64,000 nucleotides of DNA from an uncultured Candidatus Saccharibacteria bacterium. Lineage in GTDB: Bacteria; Patescibacteriota; Saccharimonadia; Saccharimonadales; Saccharimonadaceae. The stretch is from assembly GCA_937858705.1 (NCBI GenBank), contig CALLZM010000006.1, positions 62,001-126,000 on the forward strand, written 5' to 3'. Shown here piece after piece: positions 4,728-32,804 of the stretch; position 1 is the first letter of the stretch; each line of letters starts with the position of its first letter. The notes under the pieces were generated by a model. The model searched no databases, was not told the origin of the DNA, and saw nothing but the letters and a program-made list of their open reading frames with translations. The position numbers were made by a program, and so were the translations under genes.

Positions 4728-5894
4728 ATGGATACCCAGTCACCCCCCCCTGCGGTGAGCGTCATTGTTCCCGTATACAATGCCGCTCTTTATCTCCACC
4801 AATGCCTTACTAGCCTCAACAAACAAACGCTCAAAAATATTGAGATTATCTTAGTGAATGACGGCTCGACTGACAATTCCGCAACACTATGCGACGAATT
4901 CGCACAAAACAACCCTCACACAACCGTCATTCACCAAGGCAATAAAGGCCAAACAGCCGCTCGCATCGCAGGCTTGTTGCGCTCAAAAGGTGACTATATT
5001 CATTTTGTCGACAGCGACGACTGGTTGGATAGCACCATGGAAGAGACAATGTACCAGGCCGCTGTTGCTAATGATGCCGATATCGTCACCTGCGATACGG
5101 TATTTCACAAAGGCCATAAAGAAATGGTTGCTCGTCAAGCGTTTGCTACTGGGACTTACACCAAACAATAACTTGTTTCAACCATATACCCCCGTATGAT
5201 TTATAGTGGGAAGCGGTTTTTTTACTTTGGTATTTATGCCGCTATGTGGAACAAGCTCTTTCGACGCGATATCGTTTTGCCCAATATCATATCGATAGAC
5301 CCCGCAATACAAGTTGGCGAAGATGGGCTAACGACTTATGCATCATTTTTAGATGCCTCGACAGTTGTCGTTCTAAAAGACACGCTGTATCATTATCGCG
5401 ACGACAATGCCACTTCTCTCACTCGTTCATATCGCTATGAGCAATTCGATAGCGCACTGTTGCTCATTGCTTCTTTGCGACGCATTGCTAGCCAACATCA
5501 AGATACCTACGACCTCAACCCTCAAATTGACATCTACCTCTTATATAATATATGGTCCATCATGCTCGAAGAGTTTTACTACAAGACAAAACGGCCCTAT
5601 CGCCACCGATATCAATACCTGAACCGTATCGTTACTCACCCAACCGTTCAGAAAGCATGTGATAGCGTGCTGCAACAAGATGTCTTGGGATCAGAGCAAA
5701 CCAAATTCTTTCGATTATTTGCCCCAGGCCGCTTTCATACTCTACTTGGTGCTACGGTGAGAAATAGTATCGATCGACGAATCAATCATTATACTCGGTC
5801 AACTATATACGGTAGTAAGCCACTCATGGCCTCTGCTAGACTCATATCAAAAGCGAAGAATCTCGCCCAACCATCGCATGCACGAGTTAGATAA
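4728..5894 (+). pseudogene. Family 2 glycosyltransferase interrupted by an in-frame TAA, with C8 tract
   Basis: The sequence encodes a GT-A fold glycosyltransferase. VSVIVPVYN opens the domain, NDGSTDNSA binds nucleotide sugar and VDSDDW carries the metal-binding DxD. A TAA at 5169-5171 interrupts the same reading frame, which continues at once with LVSTIYPRMIYSGKRFF and the typical MWNKLFRRD segment. Joined, the gene would be about 388 codons. Eight C residues at 4743-4750 sit in codons 6-8 and are in frame. The gene is either a recent nonsense pseudogene or is read through at low level. Family 2 enzymes commonly build surface glycans, and slippery tracts near the start are typical of phase-variable surface genes. 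The 3' end overlaps the convergent epimerase gene by 8 bp. Confidence 0.75.
4743..4750. repeat. C8 homopolymer near start of glycosyltransferase
   Basis: Eight consecutive C residues begin 15 nt after the ATG at 4728. At this length the downstream frame is maintained, so gain or loss of one C would abolish translation. Confidence 0.7.
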
Positions 5895-10469: not shown

Positions 10470-11446
10470 CTACCCCTGTTGCGCCTCTGACTGCTCTACT
10501 AAATACCACGGCAGATCGCGTCGTAAGCGCCGCGGGAGCACTTGCGCACTATAGCCCGACGCATTGGCAGGAGTAATATCACGCGATATCTTGCGCGCAA
10601 GACTCGGTGCTACCGTGACGCCATTCGGGTACACACGATGGCCAAGAAAATGAATACCTGAAGCCGCCTTCACGACACTATTGTTTGTGGAATGCACTTC
10701 CAGAAAAAGCTTGCGCGCCAAAAACTCCGCACACTGCCGCCCCATGCTACTCACTTGCTGTCTCGACGCTCCAAATAGCACAAAATCATCACCATAGCGT
10801 ACGAAGCCATACGGCCGCACCTCGTGCCGCACAAAGCGGTCGAACTCATTCAGATAAATGTTTGCAAACAACTGACTAGTCAGATTGCCTATCGGCATAC
10901 CAATATGTCTACCCCCCCCCCCCCATGTGACGAATAGCTCGACAATACTTGGTCAATCAGTCACAAAGCCGCCGTGTCCATCACTCGCCGCGCCAAGGCC
11001 TCGCGTAGCACCGCCTGATCTACACAATCAAAAAACTTGCGCACATCCGCCCGATATACCCAGCCACTCGCATAGCGCCCAGCAAGCGCTCGCGTGCGCC
11101 GAAGCGCACCATAAAGCCCCTTGCTAGGTCGGCATGACCACACATCGGGGTCAAACTGTGGTTCAAAAAGTGGCAGTAAGTAGTCATAGAGAAGCCGGTG
11201 CACCACTCTGTCACGCACTACCGCAACGCGAATATCTCGTCGTTTCTTCTCGTTGACAATTTTATGATCGTAAGAGCCATGACGGTACTCTCCCGTGTTC
11301 AGGTCATATGCCAGACGCAATAGCTCTATTTCGAGATTCCCTTCAAACACTGCTATCGCTTGGCTTGGCTTTTTTCTTCGTCGAAATGCGCGCCATGCAC
11401 GCCATATATTTGTTACACTAGTGTCTATGGAAGAATTATCTGTCAT
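10470..11446 (-). pseudogene. DGR reverse transcriptase, interrupted by a TGA and a G13 frameshift
   Basis: This is the reverse transcriptase of a diversity-generating retroelement. It copies the TR RNA with errors at adenines and the cDNA replaces VR. The N-terminal part (10961-11446) has YRADVRKFFDCVD, the first metal-binding motif. The C-terminal part (10470-10898) has GMPIGNLTSQLFANIYL and the catalytic YGDD in FVRYGDDFVLFG. Two lesions separate them. A TGA at 10961-10963 interrupts DTAAL-x-LIDQVL, and a G13 run (coding strand) at 10912-10924 shifts the frame. With 11 or 14 G the reading would join SSYSSHGGG to RHIGMPIG. Repaired, the protein is about 325 residues, normal for DGR RTs. It is either a recent pseudogene or switched off in this isolate. 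Confidence 0.85.
10912..10924. repeat. C13/G13 homopolymer in the RT gene
   Basis: This is the longest homopolymer of C or G in the window. On the RT coding strand it is G13, directly upstream of the GMPIGNLTSQ motif. The present length is out of frame, and lengths 11 and 14 would be in frame. Confidence 0.9.
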
Positions 11447-11762
11447 TCAAACAACCTACGAAGTACATAAAAAGCTCGCAGAGCTCAACGCCACACTGAA
11501 CCAAACGTACCGCCACACTCTCAGCGAACCAGCTGTGCGACGAGCCCAAGCCACGCTGCGACAACTCATCCTTGCCAAACACGCGCCAAAAACCATGAAA
11601 AAGCCGTACCTTTTACAGGCAGAGGCGGAAGCCGAGCTAACCGCACTGCTACTCCGCACCATGTTGGAATTGAAGCTCGCCAATGAGACCAACCTACTCA
11701 AGCTCCAAGCCAAACTGACAGAGGCCCGCCGCCAAATCGGCGGTTGGCGGAAATCATTGTAG
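11427..11762 (+). CDS. avd: Avd-like DGR accessory protein (four-helix bundle)
   Basis: Avd proteins form pentameric four-helix bundles that bind the DGR RT and the template RNA and are needed for cDNA synthesis. The 111-residue product matches the family pattern: SVIQTTYEVHKKLAELNATLNQ at the N-terminus, a basic middle (RRAQATLRQLILAKHAPK), LLLRTMLELKLA and the diagnostic GGWRKSL ending. The start is ATG at 11427, where a TACACT box lies 7 nt upstream. It is divergent from the RT and overlaps its 5' end by 20 bp, whereas avd and RT usually share a strand. Two hairpins follow its stop. Confidence 0.85.
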   Translation: MEELSVIQTTYEVHKKLAELNATLNQTYRHTLSEPAVRRAQATLRQLILAKHAPKTMKKPYLLQAEAEAELTALLLRTMLELKLANETNLLKLQAKLTEARRQIGGWRKSL

Positions 11763-11881: not shown

Positions 11882-11997
11882 CGAGAGCCGTCCATCGTTC
11901 TCGTTCCCGACATGGTTCCTGTCCATGATGGCCTTGCCATTGTCGTTCACATTCGAATACGGTACGCACAGGTCACCGAACGCGTCGGAGCGCTTTT
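11882..11997 (-). repeat. DGR template repeat (TR)
   Basis: This 116-bp stretch aligns without gaps to 12470-12585 (constant offset of 588 bp). The two copies differ at 16 positions. At all 16 the TR has T on the plus strand, which is A on the strand that encodes the target protein. The changes in VR are 10 A to G, 4 A to T and 2 A to C. About 31 adenines are present in TR, so roughly half have been substituted and no other base has. The TR is rich in AAC/AAT-type codons (SNVNDNG, NHVGNENDG), the usual DGR design that maximises amino acid change. Confidence 0.97.
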
Positions 11998-12250
11998 CCT
12001 ATGATGCGTTCATTCCCCTGCCTACGCATAGACAAGTTATCTTTTCTCTCAGGGCAGTCGTCTGCCCTCACACCATCAGGTCGTGGGGATAAAAGGTTCT
12101 CTGTGTGCCATCAGGCAAAGATATCTCCATGACATCTTCACCCACACAATGGCAACAACAGCCCAGGCACCGAAACCAAGCAACACACCCAGTCTGGATT
12201 ACATACCTGCTGCTGTCTATTGTAGCACTGACCGCGCATTGGTGAAGTGC

Positions 12251-12279
12251 TTGAATTAAAATAACAGCTTTAGTATAAT
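12251..12279 (+). promoter_or_regulatory. Strong sigma-70 promoter between TR and VR
   Basis: TTGAAT (12251-12256) and TATAAT (12274-12279) are 17 bp apart on the plus strand. The predicted start is near 12286. No gene lies directly downstream on this strand, only a terminator-like hairpin. Confidence 0.65.
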
Positions 12280-12285
12280 TGTCAG

Positions 12286-12335
12286 CAGAAGATGTGCGCG
12301 ACACTGGATTGAGTCAGACACATCTTTTCTTTTTT
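12286..12335 (+). ncRNA. Candidate ~50-nt small RNA in the DGR intergenic region
   Basis: Directly after the promoter at 12251-12279, AAGATGTG (12289-12296) pairs with CACATCTT (12319-12326) and is followed by a T-rich run to 12335. The arrangement of promoter plus immediate terminator would give a short structured transcript, antisense to nothing annotated. A leaderless attenuated mRNA is the alternative, but no downstream plus-strand gene is present before the target gene. Confidence 0.4.
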
Positions 12336-12378
12336 GTAAGCATCACCGCCCGCACAATATTTATACAAGACTTTCGAT

Positions 12379-12403
12379 CCGTAGTTTCTGAACCACCCTA
12401 CGG
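12379..12403. other. Hairpin downstream of VR
   Basis: CCGTAG and CTACGG form a 6-bp stem about 50 bp beyond the target stop codon. DGRs often have a hairpin or cruciform just after VR that aids homing. It could equally be part of a terminator. Confidence 0.4.
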
Positions 12404-12451
12404 AAAATATTTTTGTTTTAAAAAGAAAAGGAGAAAAAGGAAGGCAAAAAG

Positions 12452-14455
12452 CTAAAGATTTGACCCCAGCGAGAGCCGCCCATCGTACTCGCTCCCGACA
12501 AGGTACCCGGCCATGATGGCCCTGCCAACGGCGTTCACACTCGAACACGGTACGCACAGGCCACCGAACGCGCCGGAGCGCTCTTTCACCCCAATATCAC
12601 GGCTAAAGGTCATGCTCCCTATAGCATTACCCTGCATGGCAATACCACGGGCACGAAGTGTTTTGAAGTAGACAATATTCTCTAGAGTACTGATAGACTT
12701 GAAGCCAAGTTCTGGCGTGTTGTCCTGTTTTCGCTTCAGTTCTGCACGCTGCTGCTCGACCGTACCGTATTGTAGGTTGTAGCCAGAAGGAATAATCATC
12801 AGCCGTACCGGCTCATCACCTTTGTTGCCAGACAGTTCCTCAGAAGTAAACTTACTGAGAAATGCATCCTCAGTATAGGTCGGATACGGTTGGCTCTCAC
12901 CAAAGCCTACCGCTAGAGCCTTTAGCTGCTTATAGTCTGCTGCCACATTTGGCACTGCCACGAGATTTGGTCGACTACCCTTTTCTATCAATTCTTTTAC
13001 CAGATAATCCGTCACGCCGTTCTGTCGCCACTCCGCCATTTTGCGCTCAAGCAGCCCTGCAAACGCCGCGTCAGTTATCACTTCTGCGTTGCCACGCAAT
13101 TTAACAGCTGTATTCTGGTAGGTGTCATACGCTGCCCAGTTCTGCGCCTTCAGCTCCTCAGAAAGCATCTGTACCAGCTCGGTGTGGTCTCGTTCAGCAT
13201 ACGCCTTGCGCAACTCGACAAGTGGGTCTTCTTTGTTACCCTTGGTACTGTTTTCATGCAAATACCGTATGTCTGGGTTCGCCGCAAATTCTGTAATGCC
13301 AGCAGCTCTCTGACCTAGGCGAATCTCATCGCCCTTGCCACTTTTTGGAACATAAATTTGGGGCGATACCATATCATACCTACCACGGTCGATAGTAGTA
13401 ACAACACCATTTTCGATATACTCGTAGTCGCCGTAATAGACATTGTCTTCCTCATATTTGTAGGCGTGTATACCGTTTTCATTGTCGGCGATGTAGCTCT
13501 CAGCGAGGGCAACACTAGTCCTGCTCATCAAATCTTCTCGGCCAACTCGTGCATAAACAGCTCGTTTCAAGCCATAAGCAACATTATCGAGATCGCTATC
13601 TAGTGTGTTGTCGGGGTTAACCACGGTGTGGTTGTAGCGGTTTTTAACAGAAACATGCGCCCCTTTGCGACTAATTTGTACCGACATGCTAGAGGTACCG
13701 TAGGGGTCATCACGAGTCGGGCGAAGACCAGCTATGTCATAACTATCAGAGCTCTCATCGTAACGACCGATGGTTTTGAGATAGGTCTTCCATTCGTCGC
13801 TGAGATTGTCCGCACTGAGCTGATCAGCTGGCAGCGTTTTGGCAACCTCGGCGTGTCGGAGCCAGAGAATGTGATACTCCTCCAGCCGCCCTACTGGGTT
13901 ATTGAAAGTACAGATGTCTTCACCAGGGCGATAATCTTGCTTTTTATACGGCACAAACTCGCTAGTAAACTCGAACGGCCCAGTCAGTTCATACCCCACA
14001 CTGCGAGCAAGTTCGTACGGGTCTTTAACTGGCTGCCTCTCGTAAGTCGGGCCGTCCTTATAGTGTTTCTCGAGCGTCGCCTGAATGTAAGCATGGTTGT
14101 CTTTGAGAAGCTGCAAGGCACCGTATTTATTAGGAATGATGCGTTTTAGCTCATCGGCAAAACCGGCCTGGTCCATAAAACCAGCCAGCAACTCCCTAGC
14201 AGCTCCGCCAGTGTAGCCACCGCCTTCCATTAGAGTGCCTTTCACGAACCGTTCGCCAAAACGCTTTTGCAGTATGCGCAGATTTTCCGTGGTGTTCTTT
14301 TTGCGCTCAGACTCTAGATCTTCGACATTGGCTTCTGGGGTTTTCGATAATTTACATTCCACCATAGCAGCAATAACGGCCGTACCACCCACATCAGCTG
14401 GGTTTGAAGGCCTGGACGATAATATATCTGGTGAGATGGAGGGATGTTTGTGCAT
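12452..14455 (-). CDS. DGR target protein with C-terminal variable region
   Basis: The 667-residue product is the variable protein of the DGR. Its last 45 or so residues are encoded by VR and end a predicted C-type-lectin-like module (TFSRDIG, then GAFGGLCVPCSS, RAIMAGYLVG and YDGRLSLG). Compared with TR, 13 residues are changed. The N-terminal 550 residues are not recognised. They contain no signal peptide or membrane segment, so the protein is cytoplasmic or leaves by a non-Sec route. A TTGACA-17-TAATAT promoter lies at 14483-14511 and the mRNA would carry a leader of about 20 nt. The gene is intact here. In other DGRs such variable domains bind ligands or host surfaces. Confidence 0.9.
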   Translation of the reverse strand: MHKHPSISPDILSSRPSNPADVGGTAVIAAMVECKLSKTPEANVEDLESERKKNTTENLRILQKRFGERFVKGTLMEGGGYTGGAARELLAGFMDQAGFADELKRIIPNKYGALQLLKDNHAYIQATLEKHYKDGPTYERQPVKDPYELARSVGYELTGPFEFTSEFVPYKKQDYRPGEDICTFNNPVGRLEEYHILWLRHAEVAKTLPADQLSADNLSDEWKTYLKTIGRYDESSDSYDIAGLRPTRDDPYGTSSMSVQISRKGAHVSVKNRYNHTVVNPDNTLDSDLDNVAYGLKRAVYARVGREDLMSRTSVALAESYIADNENGIHAYKYEEDNVYYGDYEYIENGVVTTIDRGRYDMVSPQIYVPKSGKGDEIRLGQRAAGITEFAANPDIRYLHENSTKGNKEDPLVELRKAYAERDHTELVQMLSEELKAQNWAAYDTYQNTAVKLRGNAEVITDAAFAGLLERKMAEWRQNGVTDYLVKELIEKGSRPNLVAVPNVAADYKQLKALAVGFGESQPYPTYTEDAFLSKFTSEELSGNKGDEPVRLMIIPSGYNLQYGTVEQQRAELKRKQDNTPELGFKSISTLENIVYFKTLRARGIAMQGNAIGSMTFSRDIGVKERSGAFGGLCVPCSSVNAVGRAIMAGYLVGSEYDGRLSLGSNL
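12470..12585 (-). repeat. DGR variable repeat (VR)
   Basis: VR is the 3' end of the target gene and the recipient of mutagenised cDNA. It matches TR at every non-adenine position over 116 bp. Homology ends on the 3' side at about 12469, 18 bp before the stop codon, where the initiation-of-mutagenic-homing boundary would lie. Encoded changes from TR include Y to C, N to S, N to V, H to L, R to G, N to Y and D to A or G. Confidence 0.97.
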
Positions 14456-29853: not shown

Positions 29854-32718
29854 TTACAGTGTTGCCGCAGAGACAGATTTTTTCTTCTTCGTCACGCTAT
29901 CGTGTAGCTGCACCATTACCTCAACTCTATCTTCCGGCTCATCACCACCAATCATCAGTGGTCGACCCTTACCTGCCAACGCCTTTAGTACTTGCGGTTT
30001 GCCGATGATGTATGGATGACCTTTACTGTAAGTAATGTCAACAGGATCTGCCAGGCCTTCTATGTGTAGTTCATCAGGGGTAAGATACATCAATTTCAAT
30101 CGGTTTTCGTCAGTTAAATAGGTGCTGATCTCAATTTTTTTACTATACATCCATTTACCCAGATGCATATCGACTAAATGTGCGTCGCGATAGACACTGG
30201 TAGCCCTTCTTACTTCCGCTTTGATCATTTGTTCGGTAATGAATTGTGGACAATCTCGTCGTATATAATTTCGAAGCCTAGCATCGGGCACTCGATTTCT
30301 ATACAACAATAACTCATTTGCTACTTCTCGTAGTGCCTTAAGGCTTGCCCCAGGCTTCTTCATGATCTCCTCGAATAATTTTTGCTGGCTCGCTCTTGGT
30401 ATACAATCTTTTGGTAACACCAATTTTCTATCCCCAACCATAATGCCACCAAATTTCTTCTGAGCAGTTTCAACCACTCGCCCCTCCTGATATACCGATT
30501 CAACGGCGGTCAACTCGCCAAGTCCATACTGCCTAGCGTATTCTGCGACAACTTCCGGTCTCGCCTTGACTCCCCATATCAATACCGGCACTATTTCACC
30601 TGTACGGTCGACCGTAAAATCTCGAGGCGAACCAAAAATAAGTGGTACTTTTTTCGGATCAACCATACTTGTCCGCCCAATAACTCTTTTCGTAGCCAGC
30701 TCGTTACCAAGAATATTTTGATAATAGGGCACTTTTCTTTCTGTCACAGTTTGACGAAATAGCAGATCGAGCATACCAGCCGTCATGTCATCTCGCAACT
30801 CATCATACTCATCGGGGGTTGCTGGTCCAAGATTGATGTGATGCGGATTGATCCCCAAAACACGCATAATTTTCCTCGCAACCTTCAGCGATCGTTCTAT
30901 TCGTAGCTCGCTCAAATCATAATTACGAATATGATACCTTCGATCAAGCTCATCTTTTGGCAAACCCACCAACAACTTTAGCTGCGCCTCTAGGTCATCT
31001 GTCGCACCATCATTCTTGAATAAATCTGTCCAAGCGGTCTTGCCTGGCAATCGACTTTGTATGCCACCAGTGTCGAGTGCGGCAGCAGCTATTGCCATTC
31101 TGGCAAGCTGGTGCATATTTCGTTGCTTATGAAATGCTTCCACAACGCCTCGAGAAAGCTCAGGCCGAAGTGGTATACGGTTCATCATCATCCCGATATC
31201 GGTGATCTCGTGGTGTTCGTTCAGCGCGCCTATCCTCGATAGCATGCTCTTGGCGTTGCTCACCGGAGAAGCCGACACTCTTGTCGGTAGCCATTCTAGT
31301 ATATCGTTGAAATCTTTACCCAGCGCGGCGACTGAAAGCGCAAGTTGCGACAAGTTAGAGTGCAGTATTTCTGGTGGTCCAAACGGTTCACGATCATCCA
31401 GTCCTTTAAAATCTTCATATACCCTGCCCTCTATATTTTTGGGCTTTTGAGTTGCCACGGGCAGAGCAAGTACTCCCACTCCACCACCAACATCGCGACC
31501 AGCTCGACCCATTTGTTGTATAATTTCAGCCACCGATAGCAGTTCTCTTGGCAGCCCTTCAGCCGTATCATCATTCAGCGTTTGGCGGTTAATCGTTCCA
31601 TCAGTGACTACTAGAGTCGTTCCAGGGAAAGTTCTCCCCGACATAGCCGCTGGCGTGGCGACTATCACCGCGCGCTTGCCTGGCAGAATAGGGTCATTCA
31701 CGCGATCCTGCTCAAACTTCGTCATATCACCATGAAATTCATAAAATACCACGCGGCTCGGGTCTTGACCGGATTTTCTTAACAATTTCCTCGTCTCGTC
31801 GATAATATGCTCAATTTGCTTCTTGCCCGATGTGAAAATAATCGTCTTCTGATGCTCCGCACCGATATCGGCATACACTTCCATCGGTGTTTGAGTAGGC
31901 GCTTCCCGCACCTCATTCGTAAAAGGCCGCCCCTCGATAGTCAGCACCTCCAGCTTGCCATTATTCACTCTCCGCAACACACCATCAAGGTCATCGATAT
32001 TGTGCGTTGCGCTTATCGCAGCTAAACGCCACTTATCAAGCTCATCGACACTTTTCGCAGCTACCGCAAACGCAACATCTGTGAATAGGTTCGCCTCATG
32101 TATTTCATCGGCCAAAATAACGACTTCTTCATCAGCATATTTCTCCTGAATCTCATTCGCTCGCAACAAATAAGTGTTCGAGGTCATGATTTCAATCACG
32201 CAATCATCTGGCAGCTCAGTCCTGTCGCCATGAGTAATGCCAACAAGAGCGCTTGCTTTTTCCTCACCCTCAATTTCAGCCAGCTCGGAAATCAGCCGCT
32301 CATACAGCCCATCGGCAATATTTTTCCGCGGCACCAATATAAAGATTTTCTTAAATGGCTTATCTTTCTTTTCGCCATTAAAAGAAACTCGTCCAACATC
32401 GAGCAAAAACTGTGGTATTTGAGTGCTCTTACCGCTCCCTGTTTCACCCCCCAATGCTAACGCTTTGTTGTGCTTAAAAGCGTCAATGATATCCAGTTTA
32501 TACCGAAAAGCTGGCAACTCTCTATTGCCATAGCCATTCAGCTCAGCGTGCTGTCTCGCTATCTTTTCACGATATAACTTTTGCAGTGATGTACGATGAT
32601 TATCGTGCTGCGCGGGCTTTTGCGCCCCCCCCCACTGCTCACCTTTACCTAAAGAAGCTGGAGTTGCCCTAACTCCTCGTTGATTGTTGAAACCGCCGAA
32701 CTTCTCTTTTCGCATCAT
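29854..32718 (-). CDS. DEAH-box RNA helicase, HrpA-like, with C9 tract near its start
   Basis: The 954-residue protein has Walker A GETGSGKST, DEIHEANLFTD (a DEIH box), SATHNIDD motif III and QMGRAGRD motif VI, followed by the winged-helix/ratchet region of DEAH helicases. HrpA-type enzymes rescue stalled ribosomes or remodel mRNA. The tract at 32635-32643 reads G9 on the coding strand within EQWGGAQKP and is in frame here. Two ATG codons occur in tandem at 32718 and 32715, and a GTG at 32730 could extend the protein. A TTGATA-TACTAT promoter lies upstream. Confidence 0.92.
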   Translation of the reverse strand: MMRKEKFGGFNNQRGVRATPASLGKGEQWGGAQKPAQHDNHRTSLQKLYREKIARQHAELNGYGNRELPAFRYKLDIIDAFKHNKALALGGETGSGKSTQIPQFLLDVGRVSFNGEKKDKPFKKIFILVPRKNIADGLYERLISELAEIEGEEKASALVGITHGDRTELPDDCVIEIMTSNTYLLRANEIQEKYADEEVVILADEIHEANLFTDVAFAVAAKSVDELDKWRLAAISATHNIDDLDGVLRRVNNGKLEVLTIEGRPFTNEVREAPTQTPMEVYADIGAEHQKTIIFTSGKKQIEHIIDETRKLLRKSGQDPSRVVFYEFHGDMTKFEQDRVNDPILPGKRAVIVATPAAMSGRTFPGTTLVVTDGTINRQTLNDDTAEGLPRELLSVAEIIQQMGRAGRDVGGGVGVLALPVATQKPKNIEGRVYEDFKGLDDREPFGPPEILHSNLSQLALSVAALGKDFNDILEWLPTRVSASPVSNAKSMLSRIGALNEHHEITDIGMMMNRIPLRPELSRGVVEAFHKQRNMHQLARMAIAAAALDTGGIQSRLPGKTAWTDLFKNDGATDDLEAQLKLLVGLPKDELDRRYHIRNYDLSELRIERSLKVARKIMRVLGINPHHINLGPATPDEYDELRDDMTAGMLDLLFRQTVTERKVPYYQNILGNELATKRVIGRTSMVDPKKVPLIFGSPRDFTVDRTGEIVPVLIWGVKARPEVVAEYARQYGLGELTAVESVYQEGRVVETAQKKFGGIMVGDRKLVLPKDCIPRASQQKLFEEIMKKPGASLKALREVANELLLYRNRVPDARLRNYIRRDCPQFITEQMIKAEVRRATSVYRDAHLVDMHLGKWMYSKKIEISTYLTDENRLKLMYLTPDELHIEGLADPVDITYSKGHPYIIGKPQVLKALAGKGRPLMIGGDEPEDRVEVMVQLHDSVTKKKKSVSAATL
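32635..32643. repeat. C9/G9 tract in helicase gene
   Basis: Nine C on the plus strand, 75 nt after the helicase start. The present length keeps the long reading frame open. Confidence 0.75.
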
Positions 32719-32804
32719 ACTATATACCACTATAGTAGTGATTGTTGCTATATCAAACCATAGGCACTATGGCGTGCCCGAATATCCTGAACAGATGAGA
32801 TCGC

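Follow-up and report, generated by a model that had tools for sequence, protein, structure and literature searches.

Simple-sequence repeats in reverse transcriptase or avd genes suggest phase-variable diversity-generating retroelements in CPR bacteria and some DPANN archaea

Among the closest described relatives of the locus reported here is the diversity-generating retroelement (DGR) of Bordetella phage BPP-1 (mtd, avd, TR and brt; PDB 8ub7-8ubf), which it resembles in the family of its reverse transcriptase (RT), in its Avd, in the adenine-directed transfer from template repeat (TR) to variable repeat (VR) and in the position of VR at the 3' end of the target gene. In line with this, the best PDB match of the sister RT is the BPP-1 bRT (E=6.6e-26). 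The two elements differ in layout and content: in BPP-1, avd, TR and brt form a single operon (PMC12875486), whereas in our locus avd is divergent from RT, a G13 tract and a TGA interrupt the RT, and the target is unrelated to that of BPP-1. In the reconstituted BPP-1 DGR, inactivation of either avd or RT brought repair to ~1e-9 and abolished homing, and the discussion of the same paper names the regulation of natural DGR activity as an open frontier (PMC12875486). Elements of the same kind, in the same kinds of host, have been described from CPR bacteria and nanoarchaea (Paul et al. 2015, PMC4372165), and the text of that paper mentions no truncation, pseudogene or homopolymer. DGRs and repeat-driven phase variation are each known, and what is added here is the occurrence of tracts in RT and avd. 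We found no report joining the two phenomena in the open-access literature, a coverage that does not include the 2017 survey of CPR and DPANN DGRs, and so priority is not established.

Simple-sequence contingency loci, which consist of poly-G/C or of di- to pentanucleotide repeats, switch surface and modification genes in Neisseria, Haemophilus and Campylobacter. The tracts described below are like them in that a coding repeat shifts the frame, all phases are found, and the gene is otherwise intact and conserved. They differ from the classical loci in that a targeted mutator would be switched, in CPR bacteria and archaea, and in that the instability of the tracts is predicted.

The locus lies in a window (the whole stretch of DNA analysed, 64,000 nucleotides) from an uncultured Candidatus Saccharibacteria bacterium, and it is a diversity-generating retroelement. 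Compared on the minus strand, TR and VR form an ungapped alignment of 116 nt and differ at 16 positions, 16/16 of which fall at TR adenines (n=31), with ten A>G, four A>T and two A>C changes in VR; the restriction to adenines has a hypergeometric p value of 1.7e-11. A repeat finder returned the identical pair. The initial annotation had called the locus a DGR on the strength of these repeats, and both its coordinates and its counts of substitutions proved exact, while the adenine-only pair, the Avd match and the match of both RT pieces to phrog_1423 bear out the assignment. It had also placed VR at the 3' end of a 667-residue gene, which holds, and had given 13 altered residues, where we count 14, with one change synonymous. 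As for its statement that the element worked in the recent past, VR shows that the element acted at some time and is compatible with recent activity, and the data give no date for it. Beyond VR, the homology with TR continues for 6 nt (a G>C mismatch, then five matches) before it ends, and a 7-bp inverted repeat sits downstream of the target stop. In the 910-kb genome, this VR is the sole match of TR apart from TR itself. The features of the locus are collected in Table 1.

Table 1. Features of the retroelement, in positions of the window
Feature	Position	Strand	Basis
RT C-terminal piece (MPIGNLTSQ...RYGDDF)	10470..10898	-	phrog_1423 E=2.3e-29, profile 286-380
G13 tract (C13 on +), in RT loop before PIGNLTSQ	10912..10924	-	sequence, frames, relatives
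RT N-terminal piece, 161 aa, stops at TGA 10961-10963	10961..11446	-	phrog_1423 E=1.6e-35, profile 107-259
Avd, 111 aa, divergent from RT	11427..11762	+	phrog_3206 E=1.8e-8; bAvd PF22296 E=1.7e-4; 62% identity to Avd of locus L024
TR	11882..11997	-	ungapped 116-nt match to VR, differences only at TR adenines
Possible homing-associated stem-loop, 7-bp arms, 13-nt loop	12378..12404		inverted repeat; role putative
IMH-like 3' end, further TR/VR match with one G>C mismatch	12464..12469	-	alignment; IMH role putative
VR, codons 624-661 of target	12470..12585	-	TR alignment
Target protein, 667 aa, modular, VR at C-terminus	12452..14455	-	no Pfam/PHROG/PDB match

The target had been described as unfamiliar in its N-terminal part, and the searches agree: neither Pfam, PHROG nor PDB gave a sequence match, and it has only distant, modular relatives within the same family. 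A whole-genome search found such relatives in seven genomes of the family, and a peptide-pattern search of genome contigs found none. In the relatives, residues 43-384 are joined to other C-termini and residues ~393-667 to other N-termini. The AlphaFold model of the target is of too low a quality for a fold search (mean pLDDT 39), and a C-type lectin fold of the variable domain is a possibility only. Three relatives of the N-terminal module (L019, L020 and L021) end in repeats such as NPALTNLTIAEGAS and have no VR module, and in a further relative (L022, G076:C7, 4316-6343) a run of N/X lies close to the C-terminus, at the expected place of VR, where the sequence may have been masked or the assembly may have a gap.

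The adjacent RT ORF carries two interruptions of which the initial annotation made no mention. Its N-terminal piece stops at a TGA, at a position where several related RTs have Trp in the alignment, and the frame before the G13 tract differs from that of MPIGNLTSQ after it; the tract is out of frame at 13, and the lengths in phase would be 14 or 11. With the TGA and the change of frame at G13, the RT is not intact or expressible as assembled, and judged from its reading frames this copy is OFF by two lesions. Because of the TGA, a change in tract length alone would not restore it, and the copy is perhaps decaying or locked OFF, or else it may be served in trans or be mis-assembled. An alternative code in which TGA is read as Trp was rejected, since other long ORFs of the window end normally at TGA. 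Three further DGR-type RTs (L007, G000:C25; L008, G000:C2; and L009, G000:C27) are present in the genome, all intact and in frame, and a total of four is many for one reduced genome. TR/VR pairs were detected beside L007 and L008, and beside L009 the 3' target sequence is repeated.

G-runs at the focal site recur in related RTs. Among the same-family RT loci (n=22), five have a G-run of 7-13 there, four out of frame and one in frame, starting 24-43 nt upstream of the PIGNLTSQ codons, and in the 20 family RTs with a detectable motif no G or C run of at least 7 occurs elsewhere in the RT gene. We also searched 84,980 species-representative genomes, without regard to frame, for G7 lying 6-36 nt ahead of codons of the PIGNLTSQ motif, which yielded 46 RTs with G7-G14 at this site, nearly all from CPR bacteria or DPANN archaea, with one from Omnitrophota and a few labelled only 'bacterium' or 'archaeon'. 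The reading phases of the scanned tracts were mixed (11 in frame, 15 and 14 in the other two), most of the 46 genes have ~180-230 open codons before the tract and 130-180 after it, and in 31/46 of them a recognisable adenine-only TR/VR pair was present within the DNA examined, ON and OFF alike. The repeat is not confined to poly-G, as split loci carry the unrelated units poly-G, (GA)n, (CT)n and (AGCA)n at the RT-loop site and (CA)n at a second loop. When the complete RTs of the phylum and family sets were compared, the frame was broken in 17/24 of those with an RT tract vs 1/127 of those without (p=5e-16). One Uhrbacteria contig (JACQSK010000005.1) bears two DGR RTs (L077 and L087), each with G10 in the same out-of-frame phase. 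The (CA)n tracts of the second loop (codons ~119-127) belong to three loci of one lineage (L264, L265 and L266), two of them out of frame and one in frame.

We then surveyed Patescibacteria for such repeats, searching with the intact L008 RT in 380 genomes, which gave matches in at least 115 of them and 142 loci that were not selected for tracts. Each locus was analysed with a profile HMM and a repeat finder, A/T homopolymers being left out; one locus was counted twice (L215/L278), in the class without a tract. Among the matches listed, 95/142 RT loci had a simple repeat and 47/142 had no recognised tract, frequencies that are approximate, as the best-scoring matches are listed and split genes score lower. 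The tract lay at the 5' end of avd in 74 loci and in an RT loop in 21, and in none of the 142 at both places (P=2.9e-8). The repeat unit was 1 nt long in 55 of the 95 tract loci, 2 nt in 36, 4 nt in two and 5 nt in two, and units of 3 or 6 nt were absent from the RT-loop and avd sites of all 142 loci. By way of background, 21 repeats were found in 400 kb of flanking DNA, where the other genes are without such tracts. Among viral DGRs 1/120 had a tract, and scanning viral sequences for G7, C7 or A7 ahead of the motif gave zero hits, with the motif present in at least 120 viral contigs.

The avd gene is divergent from RT in 131/133 Patescibacteria loci and co-directional with it in 106/108 viral DGRs. 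Its tract starts 3-43 nt after an avd ATG, ends shortly before the conserved Avd start and is built of poly-C, CT, CA, GA, or tetra- or pentanucleotide units. An in-frame ATG between the tract and conserved Avd was found in two cases only, and TTG or GTG stands there in some loci. With the nearest open ATG taken as the start codon, phases 0/1/2 numbered 19/33/25, which is indistinguishable from uniform (p=0.15), while 0/108 viral avd genes had a tract. Tracts near the RT start had first been read as 5' extensions of RT, a reading that was rejected, as they lie where the divergent avd begins. The avd tract may have an additional effect on RT expression. Two loci (L304 and L322) have pentanucleotide tracts of CTGTC and TGTCC, 37-43 nt long, at the 5' end of avd.

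The RT halves beyond the tract are conserved. In pairs with OFF members and unsaturated synonymous sites only, the C-terminal halves past the tract gave dN/dS of ~0.06-0.13 (the focal gene was excluded, its synonymous sites being saturated), and these ratios indicate purifying selection on the part of RT that follows an OFF tract. Tract length differed between homologous tracts, in comparisons that are all between species or loci and not within a strain: a CT tract was 47 vs 29 nt long at 92% identity, with the phase unchanged in the pair, and G-runs were G12 vs G10 at 85% identity and G10 vs G9 at 80%. L052, which is ON, and L077, which is OFF, are 87% identical.

For archaea we examined the phylum of archaeon AR20, in which 87 of 279 genomes have such RTs. 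Among 70 loci, of which 20 had been chosen as looking split, the RT-loop tract was present in 11/13 frame-shifted vs 4/50 intact genes (p=1.5e-7). The RT-loop tract is a minority feature in this phylum, and most DPANN loci have no recognised tract.

From the sequences compared here, we propose, with a probability of about 0.8, that the DGR mutator is a contingency locus in the focal lineage, in most of the sampled Patescibacteria DGRs and in a minority of those of DPANN. TR RNA would be reverse-transcribed by an error-prone RT together with Avd, with its adenines randomised, and the cDNA would replace VR at the 3' end of the target. A frame-shifting repeat would lie either in a length-tolerant loop of RT before PIGNLTSQ, as does the focal G13, or within the divergent avd, a few codons from its start; replication slippage would alter the repeat number, and a lineage would flip between ON, in which the target diversifies, and OFF, in which it is frozen. 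By analogy with BPP-1 (PMC12875486), DGR activity would be lost when RT or Avd is OFF. Either avd or RT alone should suffice as the switch, because inactivating either drops BPP-1 repair, and this agrees with the exclusivity of the tracts. It is also quite probable that DGRs of CPR bacteria and DPANN archaea have repeatedly acquired such repeats in RT or avd, one switch per cassette, and that these make them phase-variable, toggling hypermutation at random so that populations mix exploring and conserving cells.

Several other explanations have to be weighed against the contingency-locus model. That the focal RT is a decaying pseudogene, with G13 one lesion among several and the DGR either dead or dependent on another RT in the genome that acts in trans, is a serious possibility, though at somewhat below even odds. 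The focal gene bears two independent lesions, the TGA and the frameshift, and there are three other intact RTs in the genome, of which the C2 copy is ~50% identical to it in the N-terminal part; yet five lineages of the family share the tract at the focal place with otherwise open RT halves, one of them in frame, and decay of a single gene leaves the phylum-wide pattern of tracts unexplained. Homopolymer assembly or sequencing errors could also be the cause, as most of the data are metagenome assemblies, in which homopolymer lengths can be wrong, and consensus lengths of G9-G14 in such genomes are unreliable. However, it is the very presence of the tracts that is anomalous and not merely their length, the other genes of the flanks lack them, and even a seven-base run is out of frame (L027). 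Tracts other than homopolymers, with dinucleotide and longer units, likewise have mixed phases (RT 5/5/9, avd 4/8/9), which argues against pure assembly error, and we regard this explanation as very unlikely.

Two further readings accept the tracts and deny them a switching role, and we hold both to be improbable, to a similar degree. Programmed ribosomal frameshifting or transcriptional slippage could give a full-length RT from a gene fixed out of frame, and it is true that poly-G runs can be slippery and that both RT halves are conserved. The mixed phases and unrelated units nevertheless argue against it: the three phases are about equal, the direction of the shift differs between close relatives, so that neither a fixed shift direction nor a conserved slippery site was found, AGCA, GA, CT and CA occur at one and the same site, and like tracts also lie directly after the avd start. 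Neutral growth of the repeats, in parts of the proteins that tolerate it, would fit the variable length of the RT loop, which is seen also among RTs without a tract, and an Avd N-terminus that may tolerate insertions. Drift in coding sequence should, however, favour units of 3 or 6 nt, and their absence argues against this reading, which moreover does not explain the exclusivity between avd and RT or the absence of tracts from viral DGRs. A role of poly-G as a quadruplex or RNA element is not favoured either, as GA, CT, CA, AGCA and CTGTC repeats fill the same sites.

Elsewhere in the window, C/G runs of 9-10 occur at 32625, 36762, 40321, 44095, 50416 and 52643, within or beside ORFs that include a helicase-like gene (29857-32766), two unknown ORFs and a short ORF. 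Further genes of the source genome may be phase-variable. A glycosyltransferase family 2 gene (4728-5894) has a C8 run close to its beginning and is divided by an in-frame TAA (~5169-5171) into pieces of 147 and 232 aa.

In CPR bacteria and DPANN archaea, many RT and avd genes will look frameshifted to gene callers and be split or dropped, and surveys of intact ORFs may therefore undercount DGRs. If the contingency-locus model is true, ON cells would diversify the target and OFF cells would keep a winning variant, and a mutator switch present in two domains, in mostly unculturable hosts, would answer part of the question of how DGRs are regulated.
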